Made by a program: the position numbers and the translations under genes | Shown here: in pieces, positions 24,403 through 40,297 of the stretch | Layout: each line of letters opens with the position of its first letter | How positions within the stretch are numbered: the stretch's first letter is position 1 | Source: Rhodothermus profundi | Lineage (GTDB): Bacteria; Bacteroidota; Rhodothermia; Rhodothermales; Rhodothermaceae | Assembly: GCF_900142415.1 (NCBI RefSeq) | Contig: NZ_FRAU01000001.1 | Location: 613,246-677,245 of the forward strand | Direction: 5' to 3' | DNA: 64,000 nucleotides | The notes under the pieces: generated by a model | What the model was told of the DNA's origin: nothing | Seen by the model: only the letters and a program-made list of their open reading frames with translations | Databases searched by the model: none

Positions 24403-26574
24403 TCAGAAGGCGGCAATGAGCACAATATGGTCCCGCAAAGCAGGATACTGTTCCAGGAGACGCTTTGTTGAATCATTCATGGGGCCCAGGCCTTGCGCAA
24501 AACAAAACCGCTCTACCTGGAATCCTGCGTCGGTGACCACTTTACTGAGCGTGTACGGAGTAAACCAGAATCGATGGTCGGAATTGACAATTTCCTGATG
24601 CTGCTGGGCTGCCTGATAGTTTAGAGCTTTCAGCGCATTGGGGACGGTCAGAATCAGTCGATCAACCAGTTCAGCATATTTCTCGTGGATCTGCTGTAAA
24701 AACTGCACGGGATTTCCAATATGTTCCAGGACTTCGCCGAGAATCATATAATCCCAGTGTTCGGCTTGCAGCTCTTCCGGTACTGGATCGGTGAGCACAT
24801 TGTGTTGCAGGATAGTGTACCCGAACTGACGCGCCACGGCAATGGCTTCTTCGTCGATGTCCACCCCTACGCATCGTCGGGCCACACGAGCCAGCTCGGC
24901 ATGCAGCCAGCCTCCCTGTCGCAACTTTTGCTCAATCAGGGGCGCGTGATCGGCGCACCCAACGTCCAGAATAGCCCGATCTTTTACAATATTTTTGAGC
25001 AACTCATTTCTGTAAATAATAGCCACATTAGGATGGGATATAATAGCTCTAAATCCATTATCAAATTTACTTCCCAAAAGATAGTCTTTCCACTTTGCAA
25101 CATTTATCCATCCATATTTATCTAATATCACTCTATTTTTATTATCATATTTATTTTCCATTTTATTATTATCTCTCACAGGTTTAATGTTAGATGAGGC
25201 ATATTCTCTATTCAAAGACAAAACTAAATTGTCAATGGCTTTAATCTGATCTGATTGATTAAAATTTTCAACAATCCAATCTCTATATTTTTTGCTATCA
25301 TAATTATCAGAATATATAGCTTCCAAAAATTCATCAATATTCCTAAACAACCATTCTCTGGGAAAAATTTTATCAGCTCCAAAAAAATAATGAATCACAG
25401 GCTTGATGCCACATGAAGCAGCTTCTAAAACACTATACGGACATCCTTCATGTACACTGGTAGAAATTATAAAATTCTTATCATCTAACCATGTTTCTAT
25501 ATCTTCTACCCATCCTTCCATTATTACATGATCCTGTAAATCCAATTCTCGAATCATGTGATTCCAGTACACCTCAAAGCGACGCTCTTGATGAATGCCG
25601 GCTACATACAACCGATAACGCTTATCCCTCTGCACAAGCCGATAAATACATTGAAGAAGGAATGAAGGATTCTTCTTATGATTAATATATCCCACATAAG
25701 CTAGATTAAATCCAGGATTTCTATTTTTAAACTGAAATCGATTAATATCCACACCATTTGGAATTACTATTTTCTCTACATGATAGGCTATACGAGGAAA
25801 ATATTGTTCAAAGAGTTGCTTTATATGAGGCGCAACAAATACTAGCCTGTCGATAAACTCCCAGTTCACTCGCTGGGGTAACTCTGAGAAAACTTCGTAG
25901 CTGTGCAACCGGCAGACGACCGCTGCGCGCTTGGTCAAACGATGGCTTGCCTCCACCAGGAGCGAATCACACCACTCAAACCAGACCACATCGGCCCAGT
26001 CCAAAGCTTCCTGGACCTGCAACCAGTTAACGCTTTTCGGGAAATGATACACGCGCACGTGATGGCGGCGCGCTAGCTGTTTTTCAATGTCCACAATAAA
26101 CGTTGTATGGGGCCCGCACACAAACGCTACTTTGCATACCTGCTCCCCCGGTTCCGTTGGTTCTCCCAGATAAATGCCGGGCTGCGCGTTCAGCGTCGCC
26201 TCCCATTGCCGGCGGACTTCGCGCGCCAGGTCGCGCTCATATTTGCGTTTCTGTTCACTATCAGGAATGGCTTCCTGATAGCGCACAAACGTCTCAACCG
26301 CTAACTCGAACTGATTGTACCGCAGCAGTTGATCGATCAGATTGAAGAAGGCGTTCTCATGGCCGGGATCCACCTGCAAGGCGCGCTCAAAGCATGCTAC
26401 GGCTCGCTCCAGTTGTCCCAGTTCGGCGTAGGCCAGTCCGGCATCGTTGAGCGCGTAGGGATTGTCGGGCTCTTGCTCCAGTACCGACTCGAAGCGCTGC
26501 AGCGCCTGCGGGTAAGCCCCGCGCACGAACAGTTCTTCGCCTTCTAACAGTTGGTTTTTTAGATCGTCGCGCAT
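24403..26574 (-). CDS. TPR - glycosyltransferase - SAM methyltransferase fusion protein
   Basis: 723 residues in three parts. Residues about 1-130 are TPR repeats (ALNDAGLAYAELGQLERAVA, then ACFERALQVDPGHENAFFNL). About 150-460 is a GT-B glycosyltransferase of the GT4 kind: VAFVCGPHTTF, a long acceptor domain, then IPNGVD, NLAYVGYINHKKNP and a donor-site STSVHEGCPYSVLEAASCG, where the Glu is the GT4 signature. About 525-700 is a class I methyltransferase (AILDVGCADHAP, VGVDIDEE, ILGEVLEHIGNP). It likely adds and then methylates a sugar, perhaps on protein. DNA for residues about 239-532 is AT-rich, while both ends are GC-rich like the chromosome, so the gene looks mosaic. Confidence 0.85.
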   Translation of the reverse strand: MRDDLKNQLLEGEELFVRGAYPQALQRFESVLEQEPDNPYALNDAGLAYAELGQLERAVACFERALQVDPGHENAFFNLIDQLLRYNQFELAVETFVRYQEAIPDSEQKRKYERDLAREVRRQWEATLNAQPGIYLGEPTEPGEQVCKVAFVCGPHTTFIVDIEKQLARRHHVRVYHFPKSVNWLQVQEALDWADVVWFEWCDSLLVEASHRLTKRAAVVCRLHSYEVFSELPQRVNWEFIDRLVFVAPHIKQLFEQYFPRIAYHVEKIVIPNGVDINRFQFKNRNPGFNLAYVGYINHKKNPSFLLQCIYRLVQRDKRYRLYVAGIHQERRFEVYWNHMIRELDLQDHVIMEGWVEDIETWLDDKNFIISTSVHEGCPYSVLEAASCGIKPVIHYFFGADKIFPREWLFRNIDEFLEAIYSDNYDSKKYRDWIVENFNQSDQIKAIDNLVLSLNREYASSNIKPVRDNNKMENKYDNKNRVILDKYGWINVAKWKDYLLGSKFDNGFRAIISHPNVAIIYRNELLKNIVKDRAILDVGCADHAPLIEQKLRQGGWLHAELARVARRCVGVDIDEEAIAVARQFGYTILQHNVLTDPVPEELQAEHWDYMILGEVLEHIGNPVQFLQQIHEKYAELVDRLILTVPNALKALNYQAAQQHQEIVNSDHRFWFTPYTLSKVVTDAGFQVERFCFAQGLGPMNDSTKRLLEQYPALRDHIVLIAAF

Positions 26575-26735
26575 CGCAGATATTTCGGATATGTGCTGGT
26601 TGACTCCGCAGCACCCTTGCTACAAAAGCATTGCCACTTGTGACGGGTCCCTTCAACACCCTCCGAAAGGACAGGGAGCCAGGGCCCGAAGCCTCTGGAA
26701 GCCCAGAAAAGTGTTACGAGGGAGATGGGCCGTTG

Positions 26736-26789
26736 CTATCGGTACGAGAAAAAGTTTTCCGCCGGCACGGCAAAAAATTCATTGATGCT
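26736..26789 (-). pseudogene. Relic of an M90 (MtfA-like) peptidase gene
   Basis: Read on the minus strand, this piece encodes SINEFFAVPAENFFSYR followed by a stop, and it is preceded by a stop. It matches residues 247-257 (EFFAVAVENFF) of the intact M90 gene at 31223-32101, the segment with the third metal-ligand Glu. Nothing else of the gene is recognisable on either side. It marks the left boundary of the AT-rich glycan island. The rest of 26575-26860 holds no gene I can support. Confidence 0.6.
26748..26780 (+). repeat. Left copy of 33-bp direct repeat flanking the glycan island
   Basis: Matches 31331-31363 in the same orientation with 31 of 33 bases identical by eye. The core GAAAAAGTTTTCC and CACGGCAAAAAATTC are identical. 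This copy is in the non-coding gap. Confidence 0.85.
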
Positions 26790-26860
26790 TTAACAACTTC
26801 AGCCATACGTTCACTCTACCTCAGCAGAATTAAAATAGATGTATATGGATGTTTAAATGC

Positions 26861-27586
26861 TTACTTCTTTTTAGCAACACAAAAAATCTCCGCACAATAT
26901 TCTGGCAATTCATCGCCAATTTTGAATAATGCATCACAATATGAATCACTTAAGGTATCCATCATTGAGTTCGGAAGAGGTTTTAACATAATTCCCTTCA
27001 TAGCCAAAATTTCAAAATCATTATTTTCTAATTCATGTCTTAATGATCTAAAATCGTAGTATCTTTGGTGGCCTACTTTATAATCTAATGGTCCAAGCTG
27101 ATCTAGATAGCTGATATAGCCCATTGCCTTTCCAATACGACGATGCAGAGAGGTGGCATTGGGGACAGTCAGAATAAAGCATGAATCAGCATGCATGAGC
27201 TGATACACTTTGCTCAGAAAAATGCTTGTATCCATTACATGTTCAAGGACGCCGAAAGCTAATATACAATCAAAAGACTCACTACTCACAAATTCTTCCA
27301 ACATACACTTTTTAACTTCAACATTTGAATTAGCCAGTCTTTTACTTGACTTCTCAAAAAAAGTATGCGCCGGTTCTAATGCGATCATATGATCAAAATA
27401 CTTCCTCAATTCCATTGTTGTCCTTCCTTCACCACATCCTATCTCCAGCGCTTTATTTCTTCTTTGAATCAGCGGTAGGGATTCAATAAATCGCAATATA
27501 CGATATTTTGCCAGTCTGCCATTGAAGCCTGCTTCATAGCTATGAGTCCGGGCAACCTGATCCAATATCGATTGATATGACTTCAT
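26861..27586 (-). CDS. Class I SAM-dependent methyltransferase
   Basis: 241 residues. Motif I is ALEIGCGEGRTT (about 45-56), the acidic post-I residue is in MIALEPAHTF, and post-motifs ILAFGVLEHVMD and FILTVPNATSLHRRIG match the UbiG/Methyltransf_23-type enzymes found in polysaccharide loci. It probably methylates a sugar or related small group. The C-terminal half of the TPR fusion protein has a similar VPNA segment, so the two methyltransferases may be related. The gene is AT-rich with AT-ending codons, unlike the flanking chromosome. It lies 21 nt after the GT2 gene in a minus-strand operon. Substrate unknown. Confidence 0.85.
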   Translation of the reverse strand: MKSYQSILDQVARTHSYEAGFNGRLAKYRILRFIESLPLIQRRNKALEIGCGEGRTTMELRKYFDHMIALEPAHTFFEKSSKRLANSNVEVKKCMLEEFVSSESFDCILAFGVLEHVMDTSIFLSKVYQLMHADSCFILTVPNATSLHRRIGKAMGYISYLDQLGPLDYKVGHQRYYDFRSLRHELENNDFEILAMKGIMLKPLPNSMMDTLSDSYCDALFKIGDELPEYCAEIFCVAKKK

Positions 27587-27607
27587 TGTTGTATCATTAA
27601 ACTTGCT

Positions 27608-28588
27608 TCAAAATATCATTGATCTGCCGATTGTCGATAGCATTTCGACAAACTCATAAGGAAGCATAGCCCGTTGTTCACGTAAATACGACAGCGCCCA
27701 GGAAGCCTCATCATCTCGGGGAGTAAAGGAGCATTCTATCAGCAAATCACTTAATAGTATGGCTATCTGCAGTCCTATACCATAAGCTCGTTGGAGAATT
27801 TGCCCTCTTCGTAAGATAAGCTTTGCCAGTTCAAATCTTTGGATTCTATGCATTTGCTCCAGATAATATCCTGCAACAATCAGTGCTACCAGATGTACCA
27901 AAGCTTTCTCTTTATTGAATTTTTTTCTGTGAGATAAGGTATTTTCATGGATACATCTCATATACTTTCCGTATTTCGTTACATGCATCCTGCGGTGGGG
28001 ATACATTCCACACAGACGTGCCATGAGCACCAGATCCTCGTTGATTCGAAAAAAGGAATCCGCTAACAAATTTTTAACTTCATCAACTCTAAAAAGAGAA
28101 CCAGCTACCAGAGCAAATATCTCTCCGGTTTTTACAATAACTTCCAATAATTCTAATCCTGTTTTGTTATGGAATAGATATCGATCATATTGTTTTTTGA
28201 AGGCGATATGATTAAATGCTATAACTTCTGGCATTGTAATGCATAATACATTTTCCTGATTTTTCTCTACATTTCTTGCTTCTTCAAGAAAACTATCAAA
28301 TTCTTCATAATAATCGTCATCGCCACACATCATACAATACGCTGTTTTTACGCGATGCACCCCTTTGCTAACAGCGTGAGCTACACCTTGATGAGGCTGT
28401 TCATCAAATACTTTGATTGTCCTACCCGATATCTTACGCTTTAGTTCATTCACTATCTCATCATCACATCCATCACACACCAGATAAACATTCATGTTAT
28501 CCCATTTTCCATCCTCCATGTTTGCTAGAAAATGATCATTCCGATTGAATGTAGGAATAATCACTGTTATATTTTCTATATTCACCAT
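27608..28588 (-). CDS. Family 2 glycosyltransferase
   Basis: 326 residues. The N-terminal GT-A domain has TVIIPTFNRNDHF and the metal-binding acidic motif CGDDDYYEEF, so it should use a nucleotide sugar with a divalent cation. The C-terminal half is helical and not obviously membrane-spanning, so it is likely cytosolic. It sits between a HAD phosphatase and a methyltransferase in an AT-rich operon, which fits stepwise assembly of a surface or flagellar glycan. Donor and acceptor cannot be assigned. AT-rich codon use suggests acquisition from elsewhere. Confidence 0.87.
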   Translation of the reverse strand: MVNIENITVIIPTFNRNDHFLANMEDGKWDNMNVYLVCDGCDDEIVNELKRKISGRTIKVFDEQPHQGVAHAVSKGVHRVKTAYCMMCGDDDYYEEFDSFLEEARNVEKNQENVLCITMPEVIAFNHIAFKKQYDRYLFHNKTGLELLEVIVKTGEIFALVAGSLFRVDEVKNLLADSFFRINEDLVLMARLCGMYPHRRMHVTKYGKYMRCIHENTLSHRKKFNKEKALVHLVALIVAGYYLEQMHRIQRFELAKLILRRGQILQRAYGIGLQIAILLSDLLIECSFTPRDDEASWALSYLREQRAMLPYEFVEMLSTIGRSMIF

Positions 28589-28609
28589 ATCTCACCCTAT
28601 CTTTATCTA

Positions 28610-29167
28610 TCAGATGCATTGCTCTATATTCACAAATGTAATGCCAGCCTGAAAGGCAGCCAACTGATCCAGTTCTGTATCTCCTACATAAATTGCATTT
28701 CTGGGATCTATGTTAAAAAAATGACAGACCTTCAATAACCCTTCTGGACTTGGCTTCCCCGACCACACGTCCTCCTTGCCCACAATATAAGGGGTAATCT
28801 CTCTCCAGATCGAGTGATTAAAAATTTGACTCAGTGCAGCGTGGGTATTCGAGGAAACTATTCCAACGGGCCGACTACGCCGCTTACGCAACACTTCATA
28901 TAAGACAGGATGCACCGACGCCGGATCAAAGGCTGCCGCCTCCTCCTCTGCAATCAGTCGGCACAGCTCCTTGAACGCATCGCCGCCCTTTTCTATGCGC
29001 AGACGCCGCAGATTCTTATCAATACCTGCTCCCTCATCCCATACCATGCCCCAACCTTGCGCAGCGCGCGCAAGGCGCTGCTTTAGCGCACGCCAGTCGA
29101 GATGCAAACGGGCCACAGTGCCATCAAAATCACAGATTAATAGCGGCACCTCAATCAGGACACGCAC
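28610..29167 (-). CDS. HAD-superfamily hydrolase (phosphatase)
   Basis: 185 residues. Motif I is DFDGT (CDFDGTVARL), motif II the Ser in GIVSSNTH, motif III Lys in GKPSPEGL, and motif IV YVGDTELDQ; a small helical cap lies between I and II as in phosphoglycolate-phosphatase-like enzymes. It would remove phosphate from a sugar or acid phosphate intermediate. Translation seems to start at a GTG (29167), overlapping the ATP-grasp gene by 13 nt, so the two are probably coupled. In sugar-activation loci such phosphatases precede nucleotide transfer. Substrate unknown. Confidence 0.85.
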   Translation of the reverse strand: MRVLIEVPLLICDFDGTVARLHLDWRALKQRLARAAQGWGMVWDEGAGIDKNLRRLRIEKGGDAFKELCRLIAEEEAAAFDPASVHPVLYEVLRKRRSRPVGIVSSNTHAALSQIFNHSIWREITPYIVGKEDVWSGKPSPEGLLKVCHFFNIDPRNAIYVGDTELDQLAAFQAGITFVNIEQCI

Positions 29168-30222
29168 GCCTCTTGCCAGTTTACTTCGTGAAATAACCGC
29201 GGACGTCGATCAACTCCACGTATCCAGTAAAGACCTTCCGCTACCGGATTGTAAGGAGGAACCTCTGGAATCGACTCACCAAGTGCCAACCGAACATAGT
29301 AATAAGGCATGTTACAGCCTGCCGCACTAAAGAAGTTACTTGTCGTAAAGAACCGACCGGGATTGATCTCCGTCACACACGGACATCCAGCCACATTCTC
29401 TTTCAAATCGACACAGTAAACGCCATGCGGCTCCGGATCAACCGCCTTCACAGCCTGCGTCGCAATCTCATTCACATCAGCTCGGTGTACCGTGCGGGCA
29501 ACAGCAGGCGACGAGGATTGTCCACTCGGCATTAAATGTCCCATAAGGTATTCCAGACGCTCCCTCGCCATGGAAGTAACTAACTGCCCTTGATACCATA
29601 GACTCTGAAAGGCAAACTCTCGACCAGGTAAAAACTCGGATAACATAAAATGCTCGGGACGCAATCCTTTCATTTCCACCCAATACCGAATCCACCCTTC
29701 TGCTTGCCTGCCACTCCGAACAGGAAGTGCAGCCCTGGAGCCTGCTCCATGGATAGCTCGCACCCAGACCAGCCCCTCAGAATGCGATCGAATCTGCTCA
29801 AAAGCACGGGACACTTCCGCCAGGGAAGTAATGCGCACAGACTTCGGCACTGGAACGCCCGCTGCTGCCAGCACTTGGTTACACCAGAACTTATCGTGAC
29901 AAATGCGAATGGCGCTCATAGACGGCAAAAAAATGCGGGCCGGAATTTGCTCTCGATGCGCCGCTAAAAATGCAACTTCTACATCTGGCTGAGGATGCAC
30001 TAAATCAATTTGCTCTCGCTCAATAATTCGACACAAAACAGATAGATAGGCTGGATCGGTACATCGAGGCACTACGTAACGCGATTCTACCTCGGCACAG
30101 GCCAGATGATAAGGATTTATATCAACACCTACGATATAAAAAGGCTCTTCTGCCATTCGAAGCGAATCAATAAAATTGGCTGCAGCTGCACCACCAGCTC
30201 CAGTTACCAGAATGCGCTTCAT
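29155..30222 (-). CDS. ATP-grasp domain ligase
   Basis: 355 residues. The N-terminus is a Rossmann-like pre-ATP-grasp domain (RILVTGAGGAAAANFIDSL; IDLVHPQPDVEVAFL). The middle (about 110-320) is an ATP-grasp fold with WVRAIHGAGSRAALPV as the nucleotide loop and ending VTEINPGRF, which holds the metal-binding Glu and Asn. It resembles carbamoyl-phosphate-synthase-like ligases found in polysaccharide clusters; these join a carboxylate to an amine or other nucleophile using ATP. It lies 11 nt after the Gfo/Idh gene. The exact bond it makes is not predictable. Base composition is intermediate, less AT-rich than the genes downstream. Confidence 0.83.
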   Translation of the reverse strand: MKRILVTGAGGAAAANFIDSLRMAEEPFYIVGVDINPYHLACAEVESRYVVPRCTDPAYLSVLCRIIEREQIDLVHPQPDVEVAFLAAHREQIPARIFLPSMSAIRICHDKFWCNQVLAAAGVPVPKSVRITSLAEVSRAFEQIRSHSEGLVWVRAIHGAGSRAALPVRSGRQAEGWIRYWVEMKGLRPEHFMLSEFLPGREFAFQSLWYQGQLVTSMARERLEYLMGHLMPSGQSSSPAVARTVHRADVNEIATQAVKAVDPEPHGVYCVDLKENVAGCPCVTEINPGRFFTTSNFFSAAGCNMPYYYVRLALGESIPEVPPYNPVAEGLYWIRGVDRRPRLFHEVNWQEACVS

Positions 30223-30233
30223 AGATCCACTCG

Positions 30234-31157
30234 TTAAAGGCTGATTACCTCCTTGAAAGCTTCCGCCTGTAACGCAACTTCCAAAGCACGCAGCCCCTCT
30301 TCTCCTGTAACAGGAGGCTCCTGTCCCTGTTTAATCGCTATAAGAAAAGCCTCTATCTGTAATCGAAGCGGCTCTGCCTGATTATTGCCCCCCAGACATA
30401 GCTGATCTTTCCCCATGACCATAATCTGTCTCGTGATTAAATTTGATTGTATCAATTTAGTAGAAGTTACAATATGAATCTCTCTGGCCTTATAAGGAGT
30501 AATCCAATTGACAGTAAGTTGTGCGCTAATTCCTTTTTCCGTACGCAACAAAATAGAGGCCACATGCTCTCTTCTCAATGAAAAATCAGGTACTACACAA
30601 AAAACATCTGATATATCTTGATTTGTTATATAACGTACCAGATCGATATCATGAATAGCTAAATCCACAATAACACTTGTGTCTCTGATGCGAGGTGGAC
30701 AGGGACCTACGCGAATGATATTTATAGAAAGAATTTCATCTGAACTAACAAGTGATTTGATAGTCTGCACAGCAGGGTTAAAACGCTCAATATGTCCTAC
30801 CATCAGCTTCCGCCCACAATCTGCAGCTACCTGAATCATCGCTTGCGCTTCAGAAAGGGAAGTCGCTATGGGCTTTTCGACCAGTACATGCATCCCATGC
30901 TCCAGAGCGGCAAGTGTAAGCTCCGCATGTAAGGAAGAGGGCACCGCTATACTCACTGCTTCAATACCAGCGTTAAAAAATGCTTCCAGCGAATCAAATG
31001 CCTGGCATCCATAGAGGCGCGCACACGCCAGAGCAGCCGACTTATCCACATCATAAATCCCTACTAACATACTCTGGGGCAGAGTCGCATAAATACGAGC
31101 GTGATGGCGCCCCATCTTCCCTACCCCAATTACACCTGTGCGAATAGGACAACTCAT
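30234..31157 (-). CDS. Gfo/Idh/MocA family oxidoreductase
   Basis: 307 residues. The NAD(P)-binding motif is GVIGVGKMGRHHARIY at the start; EKPIATS holds the conserved catalytic Lys of the family; AIHDIDLVRY gives the HD motif. It would oxidise or reduce a hydroxyl of a (nucleotide) sugar. It is the first gene of the minus-strand glycan operon. A promoter-like pair, TTGGCA and TAATGT with 17-nt spacing, ends only 5 nt before the ATG at 31157, so the transcript from it would be almost leaderless; AAAGG touches the ATG with no normal Shine-Dalgarno gap. That promoter is therefore tentative. Substrate unknown. Confidence 0.9.
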   Translation of the reverse strand: MSCPIRTGVIGVGKMGRHHARIYATLPQSMLVGIYDVDKSAALACARLYGCQAFDSLEAFFNAGIEAVSIAVPSSLHAELTLAALEHGMHVLVEKPIATSLSEAQAMIQVAADCGRKLMVGHIERFNPAVQTIKSLVSSDEILSINIIRVGPCPPRIRDTSVIVDLAIHDIDLVRYITNQDISDVFCVVPDFSLRREHVASILLRTEKGISAQLTVNWITPYKAREIHIVTSTKLIQSNLITRQIMVMGKDQLCLGGNNQAEPLRLQIEAFLIAIKQGQEPPVTGEEGLRALEVALQAEAFKEVISL

Positions 31158-31222
31158 CCTTTACATTAGTTAACCTGTTTATCATTGCCAATCGAAAGGC
31201 CTACAAATGCATTGCCAGCGAA

Positions 31223-32101
31223 TTATTGCTCCGCCTTGTTTCTCCCAGGATGACGTGGATCTAGATTAAAAAATGCCCGAAGTGCCGCGAAAAGCTCTGC
31301 ATGACGATAAGCCAGGAGCTCCGGTCGCTCGAAAAAGTTTTCCACCGCCACGGCAAAAAATTCGGCCGCATTCGTCGCGGCATACGGCCGCAGCAACGAA
31401 CGTCCTTGCCTCACCTTCACCATCTCCTGCCGGATAAGGCGTCGCCAGGCCTCCGCCGAAGTCGGATCTAAGAGGGTCGGCATCCCATCAGCATCCAGAT
31501 TCCCAAAGTCGAACACGTGCGCCAGCTCGTGCAGCACCACATTGCTCCCATCATGGGGCACCGCCCACCCCTCCTGGACGGCTTTCACCGACAGAATAAT
31601 CGGCCCCTGCGCATGCGCCATCCCATCAAACGCCCCGGCCGCATCTTCATAATAGTCTTCGTCAAACCGATCGGCATAAAACAAAAACGTGCGCTGCGCA
31701 GGCCATTCCCAGTCAGGCCGGCCATGCAGCAACAGCGCAGCGCCAGCCGCAACCGCCAGCCGAAGCTCGTCGGTCACCGCCACCCCCACACCTTCAAACC
31801 GCTGCTCGGCCAGGAAAAACTGGACGTCCCGTTCAAAGCGGCGGCGCCCCTGCGCATCAAGCTGCCGGTAGAAAGGCACATGCACTTCCAGCCAGCGACG
31901 CCAGGACGCTGGAAAAGGACGGCGCGCCAGACGCCAGCGCCGAAGCGGCTTTCGGATTCCCATAAGCAGCACGCCGAATCCTACCAGCACCCCGGGCCAG
32001 CCTCCAACACCAGCCCGCAGGCCTACCAACGCTGCCAGGCTGCCCAGCACCAGCGCCAGAATCCCATAAAACCACACCGTAACTGGTCGCACAATTCGCA
32101 T
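31223..32101 (-). CDS. M90 family zinc metallopeptidase, MtfA-like, membrane anchored
   Basis: 292 residues. Two N-terminal membrane helices (about 9-49) precede a peptidase domain with the zinc motif His191-Glu-Leu-Ala-His195 (VVLHELAHVFDFG) and the third ligand Glu247 in NAAEFFAVAVENFF. This is the glucose-regulated metallopeptidase (MtfA/Mlc titration factor A) fold; E. coli MtfA is cytosolic, so the membrane anchor is a difference. Biological substrate unknown. The segment coding for residues 247-257 is repeated as a relic at 26.7 kb on the other side of the glycan island. GC content is that of the chromosome, so this gene is probably resident and not part of the insert. Confidence 0.85.
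   Translation of the reverse strand: MRIVRPVTVWFYGILALVLGSLAALVGLRAGVGGWPGVLVGFGVLLMGIRKPLRRWRLARRPFPASWRRWLEVHVPFYRQLDAQGRRRFERDVQFFLAEQRFEGVGVAVTDELRLAVAAGAALLLHGRPDWEWPAQRTFLFYADRFDEDYYEDAAGAFDGMAHAQGPIILSVKAVQEGWAVPHDGSNVVLHELAHVFDFGNLDADGMPTLLDPTSAEAWRRLIRQEMVKVRQGRSLLRPYAATNAAEFFAVAVENFFERPELLAYRHAELFAALRAFFNLDPRHPGRNKAEQ
31331..31363 (+). repeat. Right copy of 33-bp direct repeat, inside the M90 peptidase gene
   Basis: Matches 26748-26780 at 31 of 33 positions in the same orientation, and lies within the coding sequence of the intact peptidase gene at its third zinc-ligand motif. Confidence 0.85.
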
Positions 32102-32216
32102 AGTATCGCCTTCCCTGGCCCAAACTCAAGGAAAAGTTGCCCGTTTGACTGGAAAATTATGCCTCTCTCAGGCCAGGCATGTTCGGTAAACGCGCCTGTC
32201 CCCCCGGCAACCTCCT

Positions 32217-32232
32217 TGGCAACCCTTTTGCC
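32217..32232 (+). promoter_or_regulatory. Sigma-54-like (-24/-12) promoter of the flagellar operon
   Basis: TGGCAACCCTTTTGCC has the GG and GC dinucleotides exactly 10 nt apart (32218-32219 and 32230-32231), as RpoN promoters require, with TGGCA and TTGC as in the consensus. It lies about 40 nt before the flgF ATG. No TAnnTTTG element is seen in the 170-nt gap. It is also a TGGCAA/TTGCCA inverted repeat, so an operator is an alternative reading. Confidence 0.55.
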
Positions 32233-32272: not shown

Positions 32273-33001
32273 ATGTTGTTGCGTCTTCAGAATGCGGCCG
32301 CCTCCATGACCGAGGCCATCCGCCAACAGGAACGCCTCGCAAATAACCTGGCCAACGTGAACACGGCCGGTTTCAAACAAGCACGACTTTTCGTGGAAGC
32401 ACTGAACGAGCGCCTCGACGCCGAACGCGCTCCCCGGAGCGACCGCCGCCTCACTCAGTGGAATGATATGACGCAGGGAGCGCTTGAGCATACCGGTAAT
32501 CCCCTGGACGTGGCTATTGAAGGCGACGGGTTCTTTGTCGTGATTGACGAGACAACCGGCGCAGCCTTCTACACGCGCGCCGGCCAGTTCCGGCTGGACG
32601 CGGAAGGGTACCTGCGCACCCTCGATGGACTGCTGGTCGAAGGCGAGGAGGGTCCCATTCAGCTCTTGCCCCATGAACGCACCCGCTCGCTTTCCATCAG
32701 TCAAGATGGCGTGCTCCGCGCAGACGAACGTGAAGTAGCCCGCCTGCGCATTGTACAATTTGCTCGGCCGGAGGCGCTGCAACGCGTAGCCGGTGCTCGC
32801 TTCACGGCACCAGACCAGGAACCCCAGCCTGTCGAAGCCCCGCGCCTGCGCCCCGGCTTTCTTGAAAGCAGCAACGTAAACCCGGTGCTCGCCATGACAG
32901 AAATGATCGAGCACTTTCATCGCTTTGAAACCCAGCAAAAGATTATCCAGACCACTGACCAGCTACTGGGACAGATTATTCGGAATCTCGGGAAGTTCTA
33001 A
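32273..33001 (+). CDS. flgF: Flagellar basal-body rod protein FlgF
   Basis: 242 residues. It starts with the rod-family N-terminus (ANNLANVNTAGFKQAR), has the hook-basal-body central motif GNPLDVAIEGDGFFVV and ends with the C-terminal D0 helix (ESSNVNPVLAMTEMIEHFHR). FlgF is one of the proximal rod subunits of the flagellar shaft and is exported by the flagellar type III system, so it has no signal peptide. It is first in the operon, 18 nt before flgG, behind a sigma-54-like promoter. FlgF rather than FlgG is chosen because of its shorter length and its place before a clear FlgG. Confidence 0.93.
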   Translation: MLLRLQNAAASMTEAIRQQERLANNLANVNTAGFKQARLFVEALNERLDAERAPRSDRRLTQWNDMTQGALEHTGNPLDVAIEGDGFFVVIDETTGAAFYTRAGQFRLDAEGYLRTLDGLLVEGEEGPIQLLPHERTRSLSISQDGVLRADEREVARLRIVQFARPEALQRVAGARFTAPDQEPQPVEAPRLRPGFLESSNVNPVLAMTEMIEHFHRFETQQKIIQTTDQLLGQIIRNLGKF

Positions 33002-33019
33002 ACCATTCCGCGTGCGCTT

Positions 33020-33808
33020 ATGTTACGGGCACTCCGCACAGCTGCTCTGGGCATGAACGCCCAGCAAACCAACGTTGACAACATCGCCCATAATCTAGCC
33101 AACGCAAACACAACGGGCTTTAAAAGCGCCCGCGTCGTCTTTCAGGATCTGCTTTACCAGACTGTTCAGACGCCCGGCCAGGAAGAAGCAGAAGGCCTGA
33201 CGCCGCCGGCTTCGCTGCAGCTCGGAAGCGGCGTAGCGGTCGTTGCCACCGTGCGTCAGTTCACGCAAGGCAGCCTGGTAGAAACCGGCAACGCACTGGA
33301 CCTGGCAATCAACGGGGACGGATTTTTCCAGATACGACGGCCAGACGGCTCCATCGTTTACACCCGGGATGGCACGTTCACGCTGAACGCCGACGGAACG
33401 TTTGTCACGCAAACAGGCCTCCCGCTGGAGCCAGAACTGAGCGTTCCTCCCGATACGGTTGAGATTCATATCAGCCAGGACGGCGTGGTATCTGTCCGGC
33501 TGCAAGGTGAAACGGAACGCATCGAGATTGGCCAGCTCGAACTGGCACGCTTTCCCAATCCGGCCGGCCTGCGCGCTCTGGGCGGCAACCTCTATGAGCA
33601 GACGGAAGCCAGTGGCTTTCCCATTCTGGGCACTCCGGGTGAAGAAGGCTTCGGAACGGTCAAGCAGGGTTTTCTGGAAGCGGCCAACGTCGATGTGGTG
33701 CAAGAAATGGTCAATCTGATTACCGCCCAGCGGGCTTACGAGATCAACTCCAAAATGGTCTCTACCACCGAAGAAATGCTGCAAACGGCCAGCCAGATGA
33801 AGCGGTAA
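33020..33808 (+). CDS. flgG: Flagellar basal-body distal rod protein FlgG
   Basis: 262 residues, the standard FlgG length. N-terminus MLRALRTAALGMNAQQTNVD with DNIAHNLANANTTGFKSAR; middle GNALDLAINGDGFFQIRRPD; C-terminus GFLEAANVDVVQEMVNLITA then QRAYEINSKMVSTTEEML, the diagnostic distal-rod ending. It forms the drive shaft that passes through the P and L rings. It overlaps flgA by one base (stop/start TAATG). Highly conserved, so the call is firm. Confidence 0.97.
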   Translation: MLRALRTAALGMNAQQTNVDNIAHNLANANTTGFKSARVVFQDLLYQTVQTPGQEEAEGLTPPASLQLGSGVAVVATVRQFTQGSLVETGNALDLAINGDGFFQIRRPDGSIVYTRDGTFTLNADGTFVTQTGLPLEPELSVPPDTVEIHISQDGVVSVRLQGETERIEIGQLELARFPNPAGLRALGGNLYEQTEASGFPILGTPGEEGFGTVKQGFLEAANVDVVQEMVNLITAQRAYEINSKMVSTTEEMLQTASQMKR

Positions 33809-34524
33809 TGATGCGGCTGCTGTGGATCATCGGACTGCTGCAATGGCTTGGAGTCCCTCACCCGACTCCCGAGCCGCTGGAGGTGCGGCTCCAGCGCGCC
33901 ATTGATTCGCTGCTGGCCGAAACGTTTCCTGCTCTGGCTGCCCACCTCAAACCGCGCCTGCTGCGCTATCAGCCTGTAGCTGCCGGCCAAATTCGCATGC
34001 AGCTACCTTCCACAGTCGATGATCCCACGGGCCCTCTGCAGGTTGAACTCTGGACCCCTGATAATCGGGGAACGTGGCGCAAGGCAGGATGGGCCCTGTT
34101 TTACGTGGCCCGTTACGACTCTGTGGTTGTCGCTCGCCAGGCGCTCCAGCGCGGTGAACCGGTTGATCCAACGGCCCTGACAATTGTCTGGCAGGAAATT
34201 ACTCGCCTTCGCACCCCTCCGCTGACTCCTACGCGGCTACGCCAGTTGCAACAGCAGGGCGTCCTGCTGGCGGCTCGCTCGGTAGCTGCGGGCCAGATCC
34301 TGCGCGCCACTGATCTACGCCCTCCCTATGCGGTCCAGACAGGCGACACGGTCTGGATGCGCTACCGCCGAGGCACCCTCCTGCTGCGGCTCCGCTGCCA
34401 GGCCCGCGCTTCCGGGTTCATTGGCGACGTGATTGAACTATACGCCCCCCAGACCCAGGCCACCTATCGGGGACGCATCGTAGCGCCCGGCCTGGTTGAA
34501 TGGATTGCCACCCTCCAACCCTAA
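33808..34524 (+). CDS. flgA: Flagellar P-ring assembly chaperone FlgA
   Basis: 238 residues. A short signal-like hydrophobic start (LLWIIGLLQWLGV) sends it to the periplasm, where FlgA helps FlgI assemble. The C-terminal SAF/ChapFlgA domain is clear: VLLAARSVAAGQILRATDLR, then GDTVWMRYRRGTLLLR. The N-terminal half is weakly conserved, as usual for this family. It lies between flgG and flgH and starts on the last base of flgG, supporting a single transcript. Confidence 0.88.
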   Translation: MMRLLWIIGLLQWLGVPHPTPEPLEVRLQRAIDSLLAETFPALAAHLKPRLLRYQPVAAGQIRMQLPSTVDDPTGPLQVELWTPDNRGTWRKAGWALFYVARYDSVVVARQALQRGEPVDPTALTIVWQEITRLRTPPLTPTRLRQLQQQGVLLAARSVAAGQILRATDLRPPYAVQTGDTVWMRYRRGTLLLRLRCQARASGFIGDVIELYAPQTQATYRGRIVAPGLVEWIATLQP

Positions 34525-34537
34525 GCGTTACCAGCCC

Positions 34538-35119
34538 ATGCGTACGCTGCTGTTGCTAAGCCTGCTGTTGCTGCCCGGCCTGTCGGCTGCTGCACAACCT
34601 TCGCTGTACGCCGACTTCCGCGCAGTGCGCCCGGGCGATATCATCACCATCATTCTTGCTGAGCGCACCGCGGCGCAACGCGAAAGCAACTATGAACACC
34701 TGGCCAATGCTAAGGTAGGGGGAACCGGTGCGGTCAGCGGTACGCTGGGCGGACGCTTCAGCGCCGACGCCACGTTCGTGCGTGAAAGCAAGGCCAACAA
34801 TGAAACCATTCAGCGCGACCTGCTGGAAGGAACCGTCACAGCGCTGGTGGTTGGCATCGATTCCACGACAGGCAACCTGTTCATCGAAGGGGAACGAAAG
34901 CTCAACATTAACGGCGTCACCCACCTCATGCGCATTTCTGGCGTTGTGCGTCCCTACGACGTCCGCCATGACAACACGGTGTTTTCCTACCAGATTGCTA
35001 ATGCCCGGATCGAATACCGACAGAGCGGTCTGCCCCGTAAGTTCTTCCGCCCAGGTCTGTTAACCCGCCTGGGCGCCCTGGCGCTGATTGGTGCCGCCAT
35101 TGCCCTTGGCGTTCAGTAA
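34538..35119 (+). CDS. flgH: Flagellar L-ring protein FlgH, without an obvious lipobox
   Basis: 193 residues from ATG 34538; the frame opens 14 codons earlier inside flgA, but the signal peptide MRTLLLLSLLLLPGLSAAAQ fixes this start. The family core is present: DIITIILAERTAAQRESNYE, GTVTALVVGIDSTTGNLFIE and GVVRPYDVRHDNTVFSYQIA. FlgH builds the outer-membrane L ring. In E. coli and most others it is a lipoprotein; here the signal cleavage region has no Cys, so it would not be lipidated. A last hydrophobic segment (LGALALIGAAIALGV) ends the protein. flgI follows after 16 nt. Confidence 0.93.
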   Translation: MRTLLLLSLLLLPGLSAAAQPSLYADFRAVRPGDIITIILAERTAAQRESNYEHLANAKVGGTGAVSGTLGGRFSADATFVRESKANNETIQRDLLEGTVTALVVGIDSTTGNLFIEGERKLNINGVTHLMRISGVVRPYDVRHDNTVFSYQIANARIEYRQSGLPRKFFRPGLLTRLGALALIGAAIALGVQ

Positions 35120-35135
35120 ATGAGCGGTAAGCGCC

Positions 35136-36245
35136 ATGCGTCATTGGATCTGGATCGGATTACTGTTTGCCGCCTTCCTGCCCGCGCAGGGGCAGGACGC
35201 TGGCCAGGCGCGTCTGAAGGACCTGGTCACCATAGAGGGAGCCGCCCCCCTTCAGCTCATTGGCTATGGCCTGGTGGTGGGGCTGGACCGCACCGGCGAC
35301 CGCGCTCGCGGTCAGCGTGGCGCTCCTTACACCGTGCAAAGCATCGCCAATATGCTGCGTCGCTTTGGCATCACAGTCGATCCCAACCTGCTGCGCGCGC
35401 GCAACGCAGCCGCCGTCATGGTTACTGCCACGCTGGACCCATTTGCAGCGCCAGGTACACGTCTGGACGTTACTGTCTCTGCCCTTGGCGACGCGCGGTC
35501 GCTTTCCGGCGGGGTTTTGCTACAGACGCCCCTGCAGGACCCCACGACCGGTCAGGTGTACGCAATTGCCCAGGGCCCCATCTCAACGGGAGCAGTCCTC
35601 GCTTCCAGCTTCGGCTCCTCTGTCCAGATCAACCATACCAATACAGGCCGCGTGCCCGGTGGCGGCGTGGTCATTGCCACGCCTCCGGTTACGCTCAGCG
35701 GGCCCCAACTGGGCCTGGTGCTTAAACGTCCAGATTTTACGAACGCCACGCGCATTGCCGAAGCGATCAATGGGCGCTTCCCCAACGCAGCCGAAGTGGT
35801 TCACGCCGGCCTGGTGCGCATCAACGTACCGGACGGCATGGACAATCCAGCCCAACTGCTGGCTGAGCTGGAGCCATTGACCATCGCGGTTGATATCCCG
35901 GCTCGCGTTGTAATCAACGAGCGAACAGGGACCATCGTGGCCGGTGGCAACGTGCGCATCAGCGAGGTGATGATCACCTATGGCAGCCTGGTTATCTCCA
36001 CACAGGCCGAGCCATTCGTAGCCCAGCCGCCACCCTTGAGCCAGGGAGAAACGGTAACGGGCGCGCGCGCCACCATCGACGTGCAGGAAGAAGTAGCCCG
36101 CTCGGTTGTGCTGGGCCCTAATGCCAACGTAGCCCAACTGGCTGCTGCCCTGAACGAGCTCGGCCTGACTGCCCGCGATATCATCGCCATCTTCCAGGCT
36201 ATCGAACGAGCTGGTGCCCTCCAAGGTGAACTCATCATCCTATGA
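35136..36245 (+). CDS. flgI: Flagellar P-ring protein FlgI
   Basis: 369 residues, normal for FlgI. Signal peptide about 1-20 (HWIWIGLLFAAFLPAQGQ), then RLKDLVTIEGAAPLQLIGYG, VVGLDRTGDRARG, and the conserved GDARSLSGGVLLQTPL. C-terminal VVINERTGTIVAGGNVRISE is diagnostic. It forms the periplasmic P ring around the rod. It overlaps the next gene by 4 nt (ATGA). Confidence 0.97.
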   Translation: MRHWIWIGLLFAAFLPAQGQDAGQARLKDLVTIEGAAPLQLIGYGLVVGLDRTGDRARGQRGAPYTVQSIANMLRRFGITVDPNLLRARNAAAVMVTATLDPFAAPGTRLDVTVSALGDARSLSGGVLLQTPLQDPTTGQVYAIAQGPISTGAVLASSFGSSVQINHTNTGRVPGGGVVIATPPVTLSGPQLGLVLKRPDFTNATRIAEAINGRFPNAAEVVHAGLVRINVPDGMDNPAQLLAELEPLTIAVDIPARVVINERTGTIVAGGNVRISEVMITYGSLVISTQAEPFVAQPPPLSQGETVTGARATIDVQEEVARSVVLGPNANVAQLAAALNELGLTARDIIAIFQAIERAGALQGELIIL

Positions 36246-36598
36246 ATAACATGCCCCAGAACATCCAACACCTTCTCGGTCCTACCGGCGCCAGTGCCCT
36301 GCTGGGCGCGCGGCGCCCTCATACCCCGGAAGAGGCGGCACGCCAGTTTGAAGAGCTCCTGCTCCGCCAGTTCGTGCAGGTTATGACCCGCAACCTCTTT
36401 CGCGAATCGTTGACCGGAGACGAAGCACCCGGCTGGCTCAGCACCTACCGCGATGCCCAACGGGACGCACTAACAGATGTGCTGGCCCGCCATTTAGCTG
36501 AGCAGGGACGCCTGGGCATTGCAGAATTGCTACTGCGCCAGTGGCAGCAGTCCGGTTACCTCCCTCCTTCAGATAACGAACCGGAGTCGAATCCATGA
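36242..36598 (+). CDS. flgJ: Rod-binding protein, FlgJ N-terminal domain only
   Basis: 118 residues. It matches the N-terminal rod-capping domain of FlgJ: EEAARQFEELLLRQFVQVM, then TRNLFRESLTGDEAPGW and a C-terminal helix. The muramidase (glucosaminidase) domain of enterobacterial FlgJ is absent, as in many other phyla, so another enzyme must open the peptidoglycan for the rod. The start overlaps the flgI stop by 4 nt and its stop overlaps flgN by 4 nt. Confidence 0.85.
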   Translation: MNNMPQNIQHLLGPTGASALLGARRPHTPEEAARQFEELLLRQFVQVMTRNLFRESLTGDEAPGWLSTYRDAQRDALTDVLARHLAEQGRLGIAELLLRQWQQSGYLPPSDNEPESNP

Positions 36599-37119
36599 AC
36601 ATTCCGCATAACCTTTTGCAGCAGTTTATTGAGACCATCGAAGCCGAGCTGCAATTGCTGGGGCAGCTCGAACAGAGCTTTGAAGCGCAGTTAGACGCGC
36701 TGCGACGCCATGAGCACGAAGCCCTGGAGCAGGCTGCCATGACTACCAGCGAACTGGTAACCCGGCTTGAACGCCTGCAACAGAAGCGAGCCGGCAAAGG
36801 GCGTCTGCTGCGCCGCATGCTGCGTCTGGAGCTTTCCGCCCCCACCGAACAGCTACTGGCCGCTCTTGAAGCCCACCCGGAAAGCCGTCCAGCCGCTCAC
36901 GCGCTCCGGCAACTACAGCAGAAGCTTCAAGAGCGACTCCGCCAGACTCGCCAACGCTGTGAAACGCTTGAGTTTTCGCTGAAATACGCGATACAAATAG
37001 GACAGGAGCTGCTGGAACTCCTACAGCTCCTGGACCAGCCTGCCAGTCGTGTATATACCCCCACCGGACAAACCCGGCAGGCCTGCCCCCAACGATCTGT
37101 CGTCAATCGCCTGGGTTGA
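36595..37119 (+). CDS. flgN: FlgN-like flagellar export chaperone
   Basis: 174 residues, highly helical and Gln/Leu/Glu-rich, with long coiled coils (about 5-60 and 95-145) as in FlgN. FlgN binds the C-terminal helices of FlgK and FlgL and keeps them for export; its position directly before flgK and flgL supports the name more than any one motif. The FlgK gene starts 3 nt after its stop. Sequence conservation in this family is low, so the call leans on context. Confidence 0.78.
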   Translation: MNIPHNLLQQFIETIEAELQLLGQLEQSFEAQLDALRRHEHEALEQAAMTTSELVTRLERLQQKRAGKGRLLRRMLRLELSAPTEQLLAALEAHPESRPAAHALRQLQQKLQERLRQTRQRCETLEFSLKYAIQIGQELLELLQLLDQPASRVYTPTGQTRQACPQRSVVNRLG

Positions 37120-37122
37120 TCC

Positions 37123-38517
37123 ATGAGCCTGAACCAACTGTTTAGCCTGACGCGCCGCTCCTTTCAGACGATCCAGGCGGCGATGAATACCATCGGCCAA
37201 AACGTGGCCAACGCCAACACCGAGGGCTACGCGCGCCGGCGCGTTACGCTCCAGGCCGTTAACATTCGCGACGTCGGCCTTTATACCGCCCTTCCTCCCC
37301 GCTCGGCCACCGGCATGGGCGTCTCGGTAGCCGCCTACGAACGCCTGCGCGATCACCTGCTTGACGTGGCGGCCTGGGAGGCTCGCGCCAGTCTGGGGGC
37401 CTCCGACGAAGAAACCCGCATCTTGCAGGTGCTGGAAGGCATGCTGGCCGCCGACAGTGAATCGGGACTACCCGCCCTGCTCAATGACTTCTGGAATCGC
37501 TGGACCGACCTTGCGAACCACCCCACCGACACCGGTGTCCGTGAAGCGCTACGCGGACAGGCCCAGACGCTCGTTGACACGTTCCGTCGGTTGGCTCGCA
37601 ACCTCGAAACCCTCACCACGCAAACCACAGATGCCCTGCGCGACGCTGTCGATCAGGCCAACAGTCTGCTTCAGGAGCTTGCCTCGCTTAACGCTACCAT
37701 CCAGGCAGCCCGCCAGAAAGGCAATCCCGACTTAGTGGCCGAAGACCGCCGCGATCAACTGGTTCACGAACTGGCCGAACTGCTCCCCGTCCAGGTCCAA
37801 ACGCTCGACGATGGCTCCTATCAGCTTACGGTCAACGGCATGGCCCTCGTGCAGGGCGATCAGGTCATGCCGCTCACCCTGAATCTGAGTGGCTCCACCC
37901 CTACCCTAACGTTTGGCAACACAGGCATTGCCTTCCAGACGAAGGAAGGCCAGGACGGACGCATTGGGGCGCAGCTTCGCCTGCTTACGAATACAATCCC
38001 CGACGTGCGACAACGCCTTGACACCCTGGCCGCCACCTTAGTCAACGAAATCAACAATCGCCATACAACCGGGTATGGACTGGACGGAGGGACCGGCCGC
38101 CCCTTCTTTGATCCAGCCGGTACCACTGCTGCCACCATTGCCCTGTCATCGGATGTGCTGAATGATAGTCGGGTTATTGCGGCCTCCGGCGATCCTACCG
38201 CACCGGGCGACAACAGCGTCGCCCTGCAGATCGCCGGGCTGCGCGACGCGCTGCTGTTCAACGGTGGCACTGAAACCGCCGAGACCTATGCAATCAACCT
38301 GGCTGCAGGCATCGGAACCGCCGCCAAAGACGCTACAAGCCGCCTGGAACGCTCCCGAGCCACTGTTGACCACCTGGACGCCCTCCAGCAGGGCGTTATG
38401 GGAGTGTCGCTCGACGAAGAGCTGACCAACATGATTCGTTTTCAGCAGGCCTATGCCGCCACCGCCCGCGTGCTGGACACCGCCCGCACCATGATGGACA
38501 CGCTGCTAAACCTTTAA
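37123..38517 (+). CDS. flgK: Flagellar hook-associated protein 1 FlgK
   Basis: 464 residues. N-terminus RRSFQTIQAAMNTIGQNVAN, then NANTEGYARRRVTLQ; C-terminus SLDEELTNMIRFQQAYAATA then RVLDTARTMMDTLLNL, the FlgK/FlgE D0 pattern. The middle has LAADSESGLPALLNDFWNRW, typical FlgK. FlgK is the first junction protein between hook and filament. It is followed 14 nt later by FlgL. The filament protein itself is not in the window. Confidence 0.95.
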   Translation: MSLNQLFSLTRRSFQTIQAAMNTIGQNVANANTEGYARRRVTLQAVNIRDVGLYTALPPRSATGMGVSVAAYERLRDHLLDVAAWEARASLGASDEETRILQVLEGMLAADSESGLPALLNDFWNRWTDLANHPTDTGVREALRGQAQTLVDTFRRLARNLETLTTQTTDALRDAVDQANSLLQELASLNATIQAARQKGNPDLVAEDRRDQLVHELAELLPVQVQTLDDGSYQLTVNGMALVQGDQVMPLTLNLSGSTPTLTFGNTGIAFQTKEGQDGRIGAQLRLLTNTIPDVRQRLDTLAATLVNEINNRHTTGYGLDGGTGRPFFDPAGTTAATIALSSDVLNDSRVIAASGDPTAPGDNSVALQIAGLRDALLFNGGTETAETYAINLAAGIGTAAKDATSRLERSRATVDHLDALQQGVMGVSLDEELTNMIRFQQAYAATARVLDTARTMMDTLLNL

Positions 38518-38531
38518 ACGCGTAGCTGGCT

Positions 38532-39464
38532 ATGAATTCGTTGCACGTTGCGTTTACCCGCCAGCAGAGCCTCTACCAGCTCCTGGCTGAGCGCCAGATT
38601 CAGGAACGTCGCCTGGAGCTGGCCCGCCTCCAGGAGCAGATGGCAACGGGCCGCCGCGTTAACCGCCCTTCTGACGATCCCAGCGCCTATGCAACGAGTC
38701 AGGCGCTGCGCCAACTGGCGCAGCGCTACGACCAGCACGAGCGTACGCTGGCACTCGGGCGCGCCTGGCTGGCAGCCACGGAAGACGCACTGGCCACTCT
38801 CGTCGATCTGTTTAACAGCGCCTACGAAGAAGGTTTGCGGATGGCCACGGAGACGGCCGCAACAGCCGACCGCGCTACCACCGCCAACGTGCTCGAAAAA
38901 CGCCTGCAGGCCGTGCTCGACCAACTCAACGCGCGCCATAACGGGGAATATCTATTTGCCGGCACCCGCACCACAACGCAGCCTTTCCAGCTCAGCGGCG
39001 CTACTGTCGTCTACAACGGCAACAACCAGACGCGCCTCCAGGAAATTCTGCCCGGCCTGCAAATCGCTCTCAATTTACCCGGCAACGAGGTCTGGGAAAT
39101 TGATGAAAACGGCGATGGCACTCCGGACTTTACCCTGACCGAAGCCTGGCAAGACCTGATCAATGCGCTACGTGCGGACGACACCAACCAGATCCAGGCT
39201 GCTATGGCACGCCTGGACGCTGCCCGCAATCATTTGCTCGACCGCATCGCGCAGGTAGGCGAAATCACCCGACGACTATCCATGGCTGAAACAGAGCTGC
39301 AAGATGCGCGCCTGCGCTTAGAAACGCAACGCAGTCAGTTGGAAGACGCTGACTTTGCAGAGGTCGCGGTCAAACTCCAACGCAACCAGCTCAGTCTGGA
39401 AGCGACCCTCCAGGTAACCTCCCGCCTGTTGCAAACCAGCCTGTTGAATTATCTGGCACCATGA
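38532..39464 (+). CDS. flgL: Flagellar hook-associated protein 3 FlgL
   Basis: 310 residues. It has the flagellin-type N-terminus (LQEQMATGRRVNRPSDDPSA) and C-terminus (QLSLEATLQVTSRLLQTSLL), with the FlgL insert NARHNGEYLFAGTRTTTQPF. FlgL is the second junction protein, to which the filament attaches. A flagellin would lack that insert and be longer in D2/D3, so FlgL is preferred. Its stop overlaps the next start (ATGA). Confidence 0.94.
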   Translation: MNSLHVAFTRQQSLYQLLAERQIQERRLELARLQEQMATGRRVNRPSDDPSAYATSQALRQLAQRYDQHERTLALGRAWLAATEDALATLVDLFNSAYEEGLRMATETAATADRATTANVLEKRLQAVLDQLNARHNGEYLFAGTRTTTQPFQLSGATVVYNGNNQTRLQEILPGLQIALNLPGNEVWEIDENGDGTPDFTLTEAWQDLINALRADDTNQIQAAMARLDAARNHLLDRIAQVGEITRRLSMAETELQDARLRLETQRSQLEDADFAEVAVKLQRNQLSLEATLQVTSRLLQTSLLNYLAP

Positions 39465-40285
39465 TGCACGGATCGTTTCTGGAAAACTTTCAGCTTCCGC
39501 TTCCCGCCTTTAACCGGATGGAGCACGTAGATGAGCGGCTCCGCCCGCTCTGGGCGGCGGTTAAGCGGAAGGAACCGCGACGGGTGCTGGCGCAAGCCGC
39601 TTCTATGCTGACGTTGCCGGAAATGGCAGCGGCTGAAATACGGGCTGGCCTGCTCAACGCCCTGGGCGCTGCTCGCCTGCAGCTTCGCCACTACGAAGCG
39701 GCCGAGCGCATGCTGCGGCTGTCGCTGGCAGCCCTACCGCACCAGTGGATCGCACCACGCCTGCTGGCACACCTCTATGAGGTGCAGCGTCAGTACGAGC
39801 CAGCCTACACCCTACTGGACCAGCTAAAAGCGCAGCCTGCAGAGGTACCCTGGGACGAGCCGCTTGCCGAAACGGACTGGCACCTGGGCCTGGCCGCACT
39901 GGCCTGGCGCCTGCGCCGCTGGTCCGTCGTTGCCGCCCATGTACGGGCAGCTTTTCCGATAGCTGACCAGATGCCACCGGCGCTGCAGGCTGACCTGCTA
40001 CGACTGGCTTTTTACCAGGGACGCCCTGCTGAAGCGCTTGCCATGGCCCAACACCTGCTTCAGCAGCAGTCCGACGAGCAGGCGGTCGATGTGCTCCTGC
40101 AGACCTTTGTGCAGCAGGGCTGGAAACAGGAAGCATGCATCCTCTACCGGCAGGCCTACCATCGCTATCCAGAAAGCGAACGCTTCCGCCGGCGCCTGAT
40201 CGCCCTGTGTTTGCAAACAGGGGCCGTCGAAGAAGCCCGCCGGCTAGCTCGCCTGGGCGCGCTCTCCCTGGATGTCGAACTGTAA
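39461..40285 (+). CDS. TPR-like helical repeat protein in the flagellar operon
   Basis: 274 residues, almost entirely helical. Alternating helices such as RAGLLNALGAARLQLRHYEA and AERMLRLSLAALPHQW, then LLRLAFYQGRPAEALAMAQH, look like degenerate tetratricopeptide repeats from about 45 to 265. No enzyme motif, signal or membrane helix is seen. It is translationally coupled to flgL (4-nt overlap) and followed 12 nt later by an HDOD gene, so it probably works with flagellar assembly or its control. I do not recognise it as a named flagellar protein. Confidence 0.75.
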   Translation: MMHGSFLENFQLPLPAFNRMEHVDERLRPLWAAVKRKEPRRVLAQAASMLTLPEMAAAEIRAGLLNALGAARLQLRHYEAAERMLRLSLAALPHQWIAPRLLAHLYEVQRQYEPAYTLLDQLKAQPAEVPWDEPLAETDWHLGLAALAWRLRRWSVVAAHVRAAFPIADQMPPALQADLLRLAFYQGRPAEALAMAQHLLQQQSDEQAVDVLLQTFVQQGWKQEACILYRQAYHRYPESERFRRRLIALCLQTGAVEEARRLARLGALSLDVEL

Positions 40286-40297
40286 CCTACCCGGGCC

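Follow-up and report, generated by a model that had tools for sequence, protein, structure and literature searches.

A putative flagellar glycan operon of Rhodothermus profundi beside a duplicated peptidase gene end carrying a candidate enhancer

Variable islands formed by flagellar glycosylation clusters are known from Alteromonas, Pseudomonas (PMC4033161) and Geobacillus (PMC5109656). In the islands of PMC4033161, one cluster replaces another through recombination in the conserved flanks. Control of flagellin glycosylation enzymes by RpoN is known in Helicobacter and Campylobacter (reviewed in PMC3930126), and the type B flagellin glycan operon of Clostridioides difficile contains a carbamoyl-phosphate-synthetase-like gene (PMC10889297). 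Here we describe a locus within a 64,000-nucleotide stretch of the Rhodothermus profundi genome (hereafter, the window) that resembles the flagellin glycosylation islands (PMC4033161, PMC5109656) in that a variable cluster of sugar genes, differing between close relatives, lies beside conserved flagellar genes. Unlike the islands of PMC4033161, the Rhodothermus island appears to have been added at an island-free site, with duplication of the 3′ end of the neighbouring gene and the putative regulatory elements therein. With the C. difficile type B operon (PMC10889297) it shares, by gene description, glycosyltransferases and a 'carbamoyl phosphate synthetase'-like gene, but it has no ornithine cyclodeaminase, and carries a Gfo/Idh dehydrogenase and a HAD-family gene instead.

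Gene content of the island and its flagellar neighbourhoods

The island (26781-31222, minus strand) is inserted between a complete M90 (MtfA-like) metallopeptidase gene (31223-32101, minus strand; Pfam PF06167, E = 1e-62) and a gene on the same strand that fuses TPR, glycosyltransferase and methyltransferase parts (TPR-GT; 24403-26574; Pfam) and adjoins M90 in the genus as well as in Roseithermus. Divergently from M90 runs flgF (32273-33001, plus strand; gene prediction and relatives), the first gene of the flagellar cluster, and positions 32273-41236 hold a complete-looking flgF-flgL cluster. R. marinus, the type species of the genus, is described as non-motile although the flagellar cluster is present (PMC3035238).

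All five island genes are encoded on the minus strand. The first gene of the operon encodes a Gfo/Idh/MocA dehydrogenase (30234-31157) and is followed by genes for a PylC-like ATP-grasp ligase (29155-30222) and a HAD-family hydrolase (28610-29167), all three assigned from Pfam and relatives, and then by genes for a family 2 glycosyltransferase (GT2; 27608-28588) and a SAM-dependent methyltransferase (Methyltransf_23; 26861-27586), both assigned from Pfam. The ATP-grasp protein matches 'carbamoyl phosphate synthetase' models with scores below the model cut-offs. GC content is 0.37-0.38 in the methyltransferase and GT2 genes and 0.45-0.51 in the remaining three; that of the window is 0.589. Thus, an earlier reading of the locus from its sequence only, which had noted five glycan genes between two repeats, most of them AT-rich, holds for both gene content and composition.

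Relatives of the island genes recur next to flagellar genes. In two genomes from another family of the order (G181 and G453), the Gfo/Idh, ATP-grasp and HAD genes are arranged in the same order and divergently from flgF, with identities to the island proteins of 46-48%, 61-62% and 38-43%, respectively. A third genome of that family (G452) has the Gfo/Idh and ATP-grasp genes divergent from flgF, on a contig that ends inside the ATP-grasp gene. All three loci are equipped with promoters of the form TTGGCAC-N5-CGTGC, that is, canonical sigma54 motifs, and the same form precedes an ATP-grasp gene located beside flagellar-cluster genes in G455. In G405, the ATP-grasp (69% identity to that of the island) and HAD (52%) genes are accompanied by another gene and by a GT2 gene (35%) adjoining them. 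The G405 locus (L167) is situated on a short contig (C162), whose ends leave any adjacent flgF out of view and on which the ATP-grasp gene, the HAD gene, a sulfotransferase-like frame and the GT2 gene follow the order of the island. The module is thus repeatedly tied to the flagellar cluster, and since the trio sits by flgF in another family behind sigma54 motifs, a flagellar glycan module is its best functional reading. The simplest interpretation, based on gene neighbourhood and family membership, is that the island has a role in a flagellar glycan, probably one on flagellin.

Two peculiarities of the TPR-GT gene deserve mention. The stretch 25006-25384, in the middle of the gene between its glycosyltransferase and methyltransferase parts, is very AT-rich (GC 0.27) and cannot for the most part be aligned to other Rhodothermus at the DNA level; TPR-GT therefore has a hypervariable centre. 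In addition, a 20-bp repeat (95% identical; 24635-24654 and 27156-27175) encodes the peptide ILTVPNA in two distantly related methyltransferases. The repeat raised the possibility that the island methyltransferase is a recent paralogue of the C-terminal methyltransferase of TPR-GT, which we rejected, as the two are only weakly similar (E = 3e-4). For the same reason, a tandem duplication of the entire M90-TPR-GT unit followed by gene replacement is unsupported.

The empty site and a displaced 3′ end of the peptidase gene

We compared the locus with six other Rhodothermus genomes, one genome per species. In all six, a single M90 gene with an unchanged neighbour on its flgF side directly adjoins TPR-GT through its 3′ end, and the 4.4 kb between the repeats are missing. 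These are the relatives with one M90 gene and no island that the sequence-only reading had proposed to look for; no alternative cargo between the repeats was found in the six genomes.

The 33-bp direct repeat described in that reading is present as reported, with 31 of 33 positions identical in the same orientation. Its left copy (26748-26780) lies outside any intact gene and its right copy (31331-31363) within codons 247-257 of the intact M90 gene. With up to three mismatches allowed, the window contains no match besides these two, and none of 100 shuffles yielded two; a DNA search of the whole genome (18 contigs) with the left region as query likewise returned only these two places. No Rfam match to a structured RNA was obtained in or around the repeat.

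The left copy was correctly recognized as a relic of M90: on the minus strand it reads EFFAVPAENFF-SYR-stop and is collinear with relatives. The distance from the TPR-GT start to the repeat is 173 bp in the window and about 170 bp in relatives (G002), and the left side of the island retains the ancestral arrangement, one conserved intergenic block being positioned as in G002. Because both the ancestral spacing and the position of this block are kept, the left copy represents the native M90 3′ end severed from the rest of its gene, and the region 26575-26780 (minus strand) comprises this displaced, decayed end together with the native promoter region of TPR-GT. Homology between the two sides of the island is not confined to the 33 bp but includes the second conserved block and a decayed stretch between the blocks. 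The flank of the relic is still recognizable as an M90 3′ end, with an alignment score of 61 against 29 ± 8 for shuffles. On the right, M90 has its own complete 3′ end; beyond it lie another copy of the conserved block and the island operon, in that order. The right-hand 3′ end shows ordinary identity to relatives, like a normal Rhodothermus M90, and a foreign origin for it was accordingly rejected.

A single gain of the island in the lineage of the window species is the simplest account of its origin, since the genus tree nests this species among island-less ones, albeit on weakly supported branches and with an uncertain root. The low GC content also fits a gain, and the strong decay of the relic implies that the insertion is not recent. 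The same decay would suit an island that was ancestral to the genus and lost from the other species, for instance by recombination between the repeats. Such ancestry also gains from the orthologues of the trio by flgF in another family, the ATP-grasp identity of 61-62% being similar to that of flgI (67%). We nevertheless regard it as unlikely: with the window species nested (in the weakly supported tree) and Roseithermus devoid of the island, at least two or three losses would be needed, and the AT-rich composition contrasts with the 63-67% GC of the relatives that have the genes. Under the preferred single gain, the M90 3′ end may have been duplicated either through a single crossover with an M90-carrying molecule or by a tandem duplication preceding the insertion.

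DNA-level constraint on the repeat and its likeness to a flagellar element

The right copy of the repeat is constrained beyond the peptide it encodes. In a codon alignment of M90 from the seven species, 9 of the 11 repeat codons are identical throughout, including the A/T-rich GAA and TTT, whereas among the other codons with a conserved amino acid only 13 of 171 are invariant; all seven two-fold codons of the repeat are invariant across the seven species. When codons were permuted within degeneracy classes, this level of constraint was reached in any run of 11 codons in 1 of 100,000 permutations. The repeat might have been conserved merely as the M90 peptide motif EFFAVAVENFF, which is also retained in Roseithermus, the left copy then being a young pseudogene. 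That explanation is highly improbable, because other M90 peptide stretches that are just as conserved, the zinc-binding HELAH among them, vary at synonymous sites (six species' codons), and because the part of the relic outside the core is not young. Invariant bases of the repeat have changed at 2 of 31 positions in the dead left copy, compared with 28 of 48 in the adjoining 98 bp (Fisher p = 3e-6). Two blocks surviving in the dead copy with decay between them look like conserved regulatory sites.

These observations bear on how the borders of the repeat are to be understood. With two separate blocks surviving amid decay, the repeat borders need not be recombination borders, and since the repeat is constrained in island-free species and survives selectively in the relic, its limits were more likely set by selection than by a crossover. 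The sequence-only reading had proposed an insertion or exchange that used the peptidase gene as anchor. The part that stands is an insertion beside M90 with duplication of the M90 3′ end; the 33 bp as the recombination anchor do not, because their borders coincide with a stretch constrained at the DNA level in species without the island, and because the decayed relic selectively retained that stretch. A homologous exchange anchored on M90, whether by single crossover or unequal, with the repeat as a mere scar, would account for the direct repeat flanking the island and for the duplication, and the normal, Rhodothermus-like right-hand 3′ end leaves room for a Rhodothermus donor or for tandem duplication in place. 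Such an exchange explains neither the survival in the relic of only the 33 bp and the promoter-like block nor the constraint on codons seen in other species, and we consider it improbable as a full account.

Islands integrating at the 3′ end of a gene bring a replacement 3′ end with them. The arrangement seen here, with a short direct repeat at both ends, an intact target gene on one side and a displaced 3′ end on the other, is what would be expected of a present or former site-specific integrative element carrying a replacement M90 3′ end, with the 33 bp as its attachment core. However, neither an integrase nor a transposase nor any other mobility gene is encoded in the 4.4-kb island, which holds only the five glycan genes and has no room for another, so that an own recombinase is missing; and no plasmid gene is closely related to that for the ATP-grasp protein, the best reaching about 28-30% identity. 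Furthermore, an attachment site would explain neither the synonymous constraint on the core in six island-free species nor the preservation of a second block outside the core. We thus consider an integrative element quite improbable; as judged from its sequence, the island gives no sign of mobility. If the preferred reading is right, the locus also cautions that short repeats bordering an island may be marks of selection and not of the recombination event.

The second block, here called motif B, resembles a sigma54 promoter. Its left copy (TGGCAATGCTTTTGTAG; 26620-26636, minus strand), within a block conserved in all seven species, precedes TPR-GT, and its right copy (TGGCAATGCATTTGTAG; 31201-31217, minus strand), also in the conserved block, precedes the island operon. 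Written as CTACAAA-N-GCATTGCCA, the two copies are identical at 16 of 17 positions; their distances to the repeat are 111 and 113 bp, and some 45 bp separate each from the start codon that follows. On the coding strand, the motif reads TGGCAATGCNTTTG, close to the flgF sigma54 promoter except that the last base of the -12 part is T or A, not C: the GG half is retained, and TTTGT or TTTGA stands in place of the canonical TTTGC. The GG-N10-GC pattern is therefore not attained at TPR-GT and the island operon of Rhodothermus, and their promoters can be called only sigma54-like. Roseithermus has the canonical TGGCA-N5-TTTGC between M90 and TPR-GT, and GG-N10-GC is also present at the trio or the ATP-grasp gene in four other genomes.

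The 33-bp core is a degenerate version of an element found upstream of flgF. This element, GGAAAAGTTGCC-N9-GGAAAATTATGCC in the window (32130-32163, plus strand) and with a spacer of N9/10 among the seven species, is invariant outside that spacer in all of them, and its tandem form also precedes flgF in further families of the order. It is followed by the flgF promoter TGGCAACCCTTTTGC (32217-32231, plus strand), identified in a motif scan as GG-N10-GC; its motif TGGCA-N5-TTTGC, the -24/-12 form of a sigma54 promoter, is common to all seven species. The tandem element is found upstream of fliS, too, in at least four Rhodothermus genomes, with just some 75 bp and no obvious sigma54 promoter between it and the start codon. 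We scanned 128,000 window positions with the consensus GGAAAA-N2/3-TKCC, taken twice with a spacer of 7-10. The flgF element matched at 20 of 20 positions and both repeat copies at 17 of 20, the next best of all positions (0.3 expected, with a partly post hoc consensus); under the same partly post hoc consensus, the M90 core comes second to flgF in the loci of each of the six relatives. It should be noted that the consensus was composed after the M90 core had been inspected, so that the match of the core is supporting and not independent evidence. The half-pattern TTGCC-N7-9-GGAAAA was rejected as a regulon definition because it is too loose. In Roseithermus, the core no longer matches the flgF/fliS element, although TPR-GT adjoins M90 there.

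Candidate flagellar control of the gained operon

All seven genomes encode rpoN (PF04552) and several strong sigma54 activators (PF00158). One activator, an NtrC-type regulator, is encoded together with a histidine kinase between fliF and the fliD-fliS-flagellin genes. In the genome of the window, the region L196 3833-11148 (G000:C10) carries this kinase-regulator pair between fliF and fliD-fliS, along with a gene for a TPR-containing glycosyltransferase and a flagellin gene, and is a probable flagellar control centre; there, fliS is preceded by the tandem element in the form GGAAAA-N2-TGCC and by a motif, GCCGATA, that recalls sigma28. In a genome-wide scan for exact TGGCA-N5-TTTGC, matches other than that at flgF, which was found in every genome, resembled background.

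The presence of rpoN, of a kinase/NtrC-type pair in the flagellar cluster and of GG-N10-GC at flgF parallels the situation in Helicobacter and Campylobacter, and the glycan genes would apparently belong to the same regulon. There are differences as well: FlgR of Helicobacter activates without binding DNA, whereas Rhodothermus has a conserved tandem DNA element, of which one copy is located inside a peptidase coding sequence and duplicated. In the literature searched, we found no description of an enhancer-like element within a neighbouring peptidase gene duplicated along with a flagellar glycosylation island, nor of a tandem element of this kind in the sigma54-dependent control of flagella in Rhodothermales.

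We hold with moderate confidence that a flagellar-glycan operon was gained once, with duplication of the M90 3′ end and of the putative enhancer and sigma54-type promoter associated with it. According to this model, a five-gene operon, most likely devoted to a flagellar (flagellin) glycan, would have been gained between M90 and its native downstream neighbour TPR-GT, in an event that duplicated the M90 3′ end plus the promoter region behind M90, by one of the presumed routes outlined above. The 33-bp element in the M90 coding sequence would serve as an enhancer (upstream activating sequence, UAS) for a sigma54-type promoter located 111-113 bp onward, presumably by binding a sigma54 activator. 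After the event, TPR-GT and the gained operon would each possess their own enhancer and promoter; most of the remainder of the left copy would have decayed, with the enhancer and promoter elements staying in place. The island operon would then be expressed together with the flagella, and its product would go on flagellin.

A bolder extension, which we consider rather unlikely, is that a house-keeping peptidase gene conceals an enhancer that acts as a portable dock, such that insertions behind M90 duplicate the enhancer-promoter pair; foreign sugar operons could consequently join the flagellar regulon at once, while the old neighbour keeps its promoter. If the preferred single-gain model is true, the locus would provide a comparative case of a gained surface-sugar operon wired into an existing flagellar programme, in which a control region, lying partly inside the protein-coding sequence of a neighbour, was duplicated along with the gain. 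It would also point to a tandem element as a candidate recognition site for sigma54-dependent flagellar control in Rhodothermales, deep within Bacteroidota.
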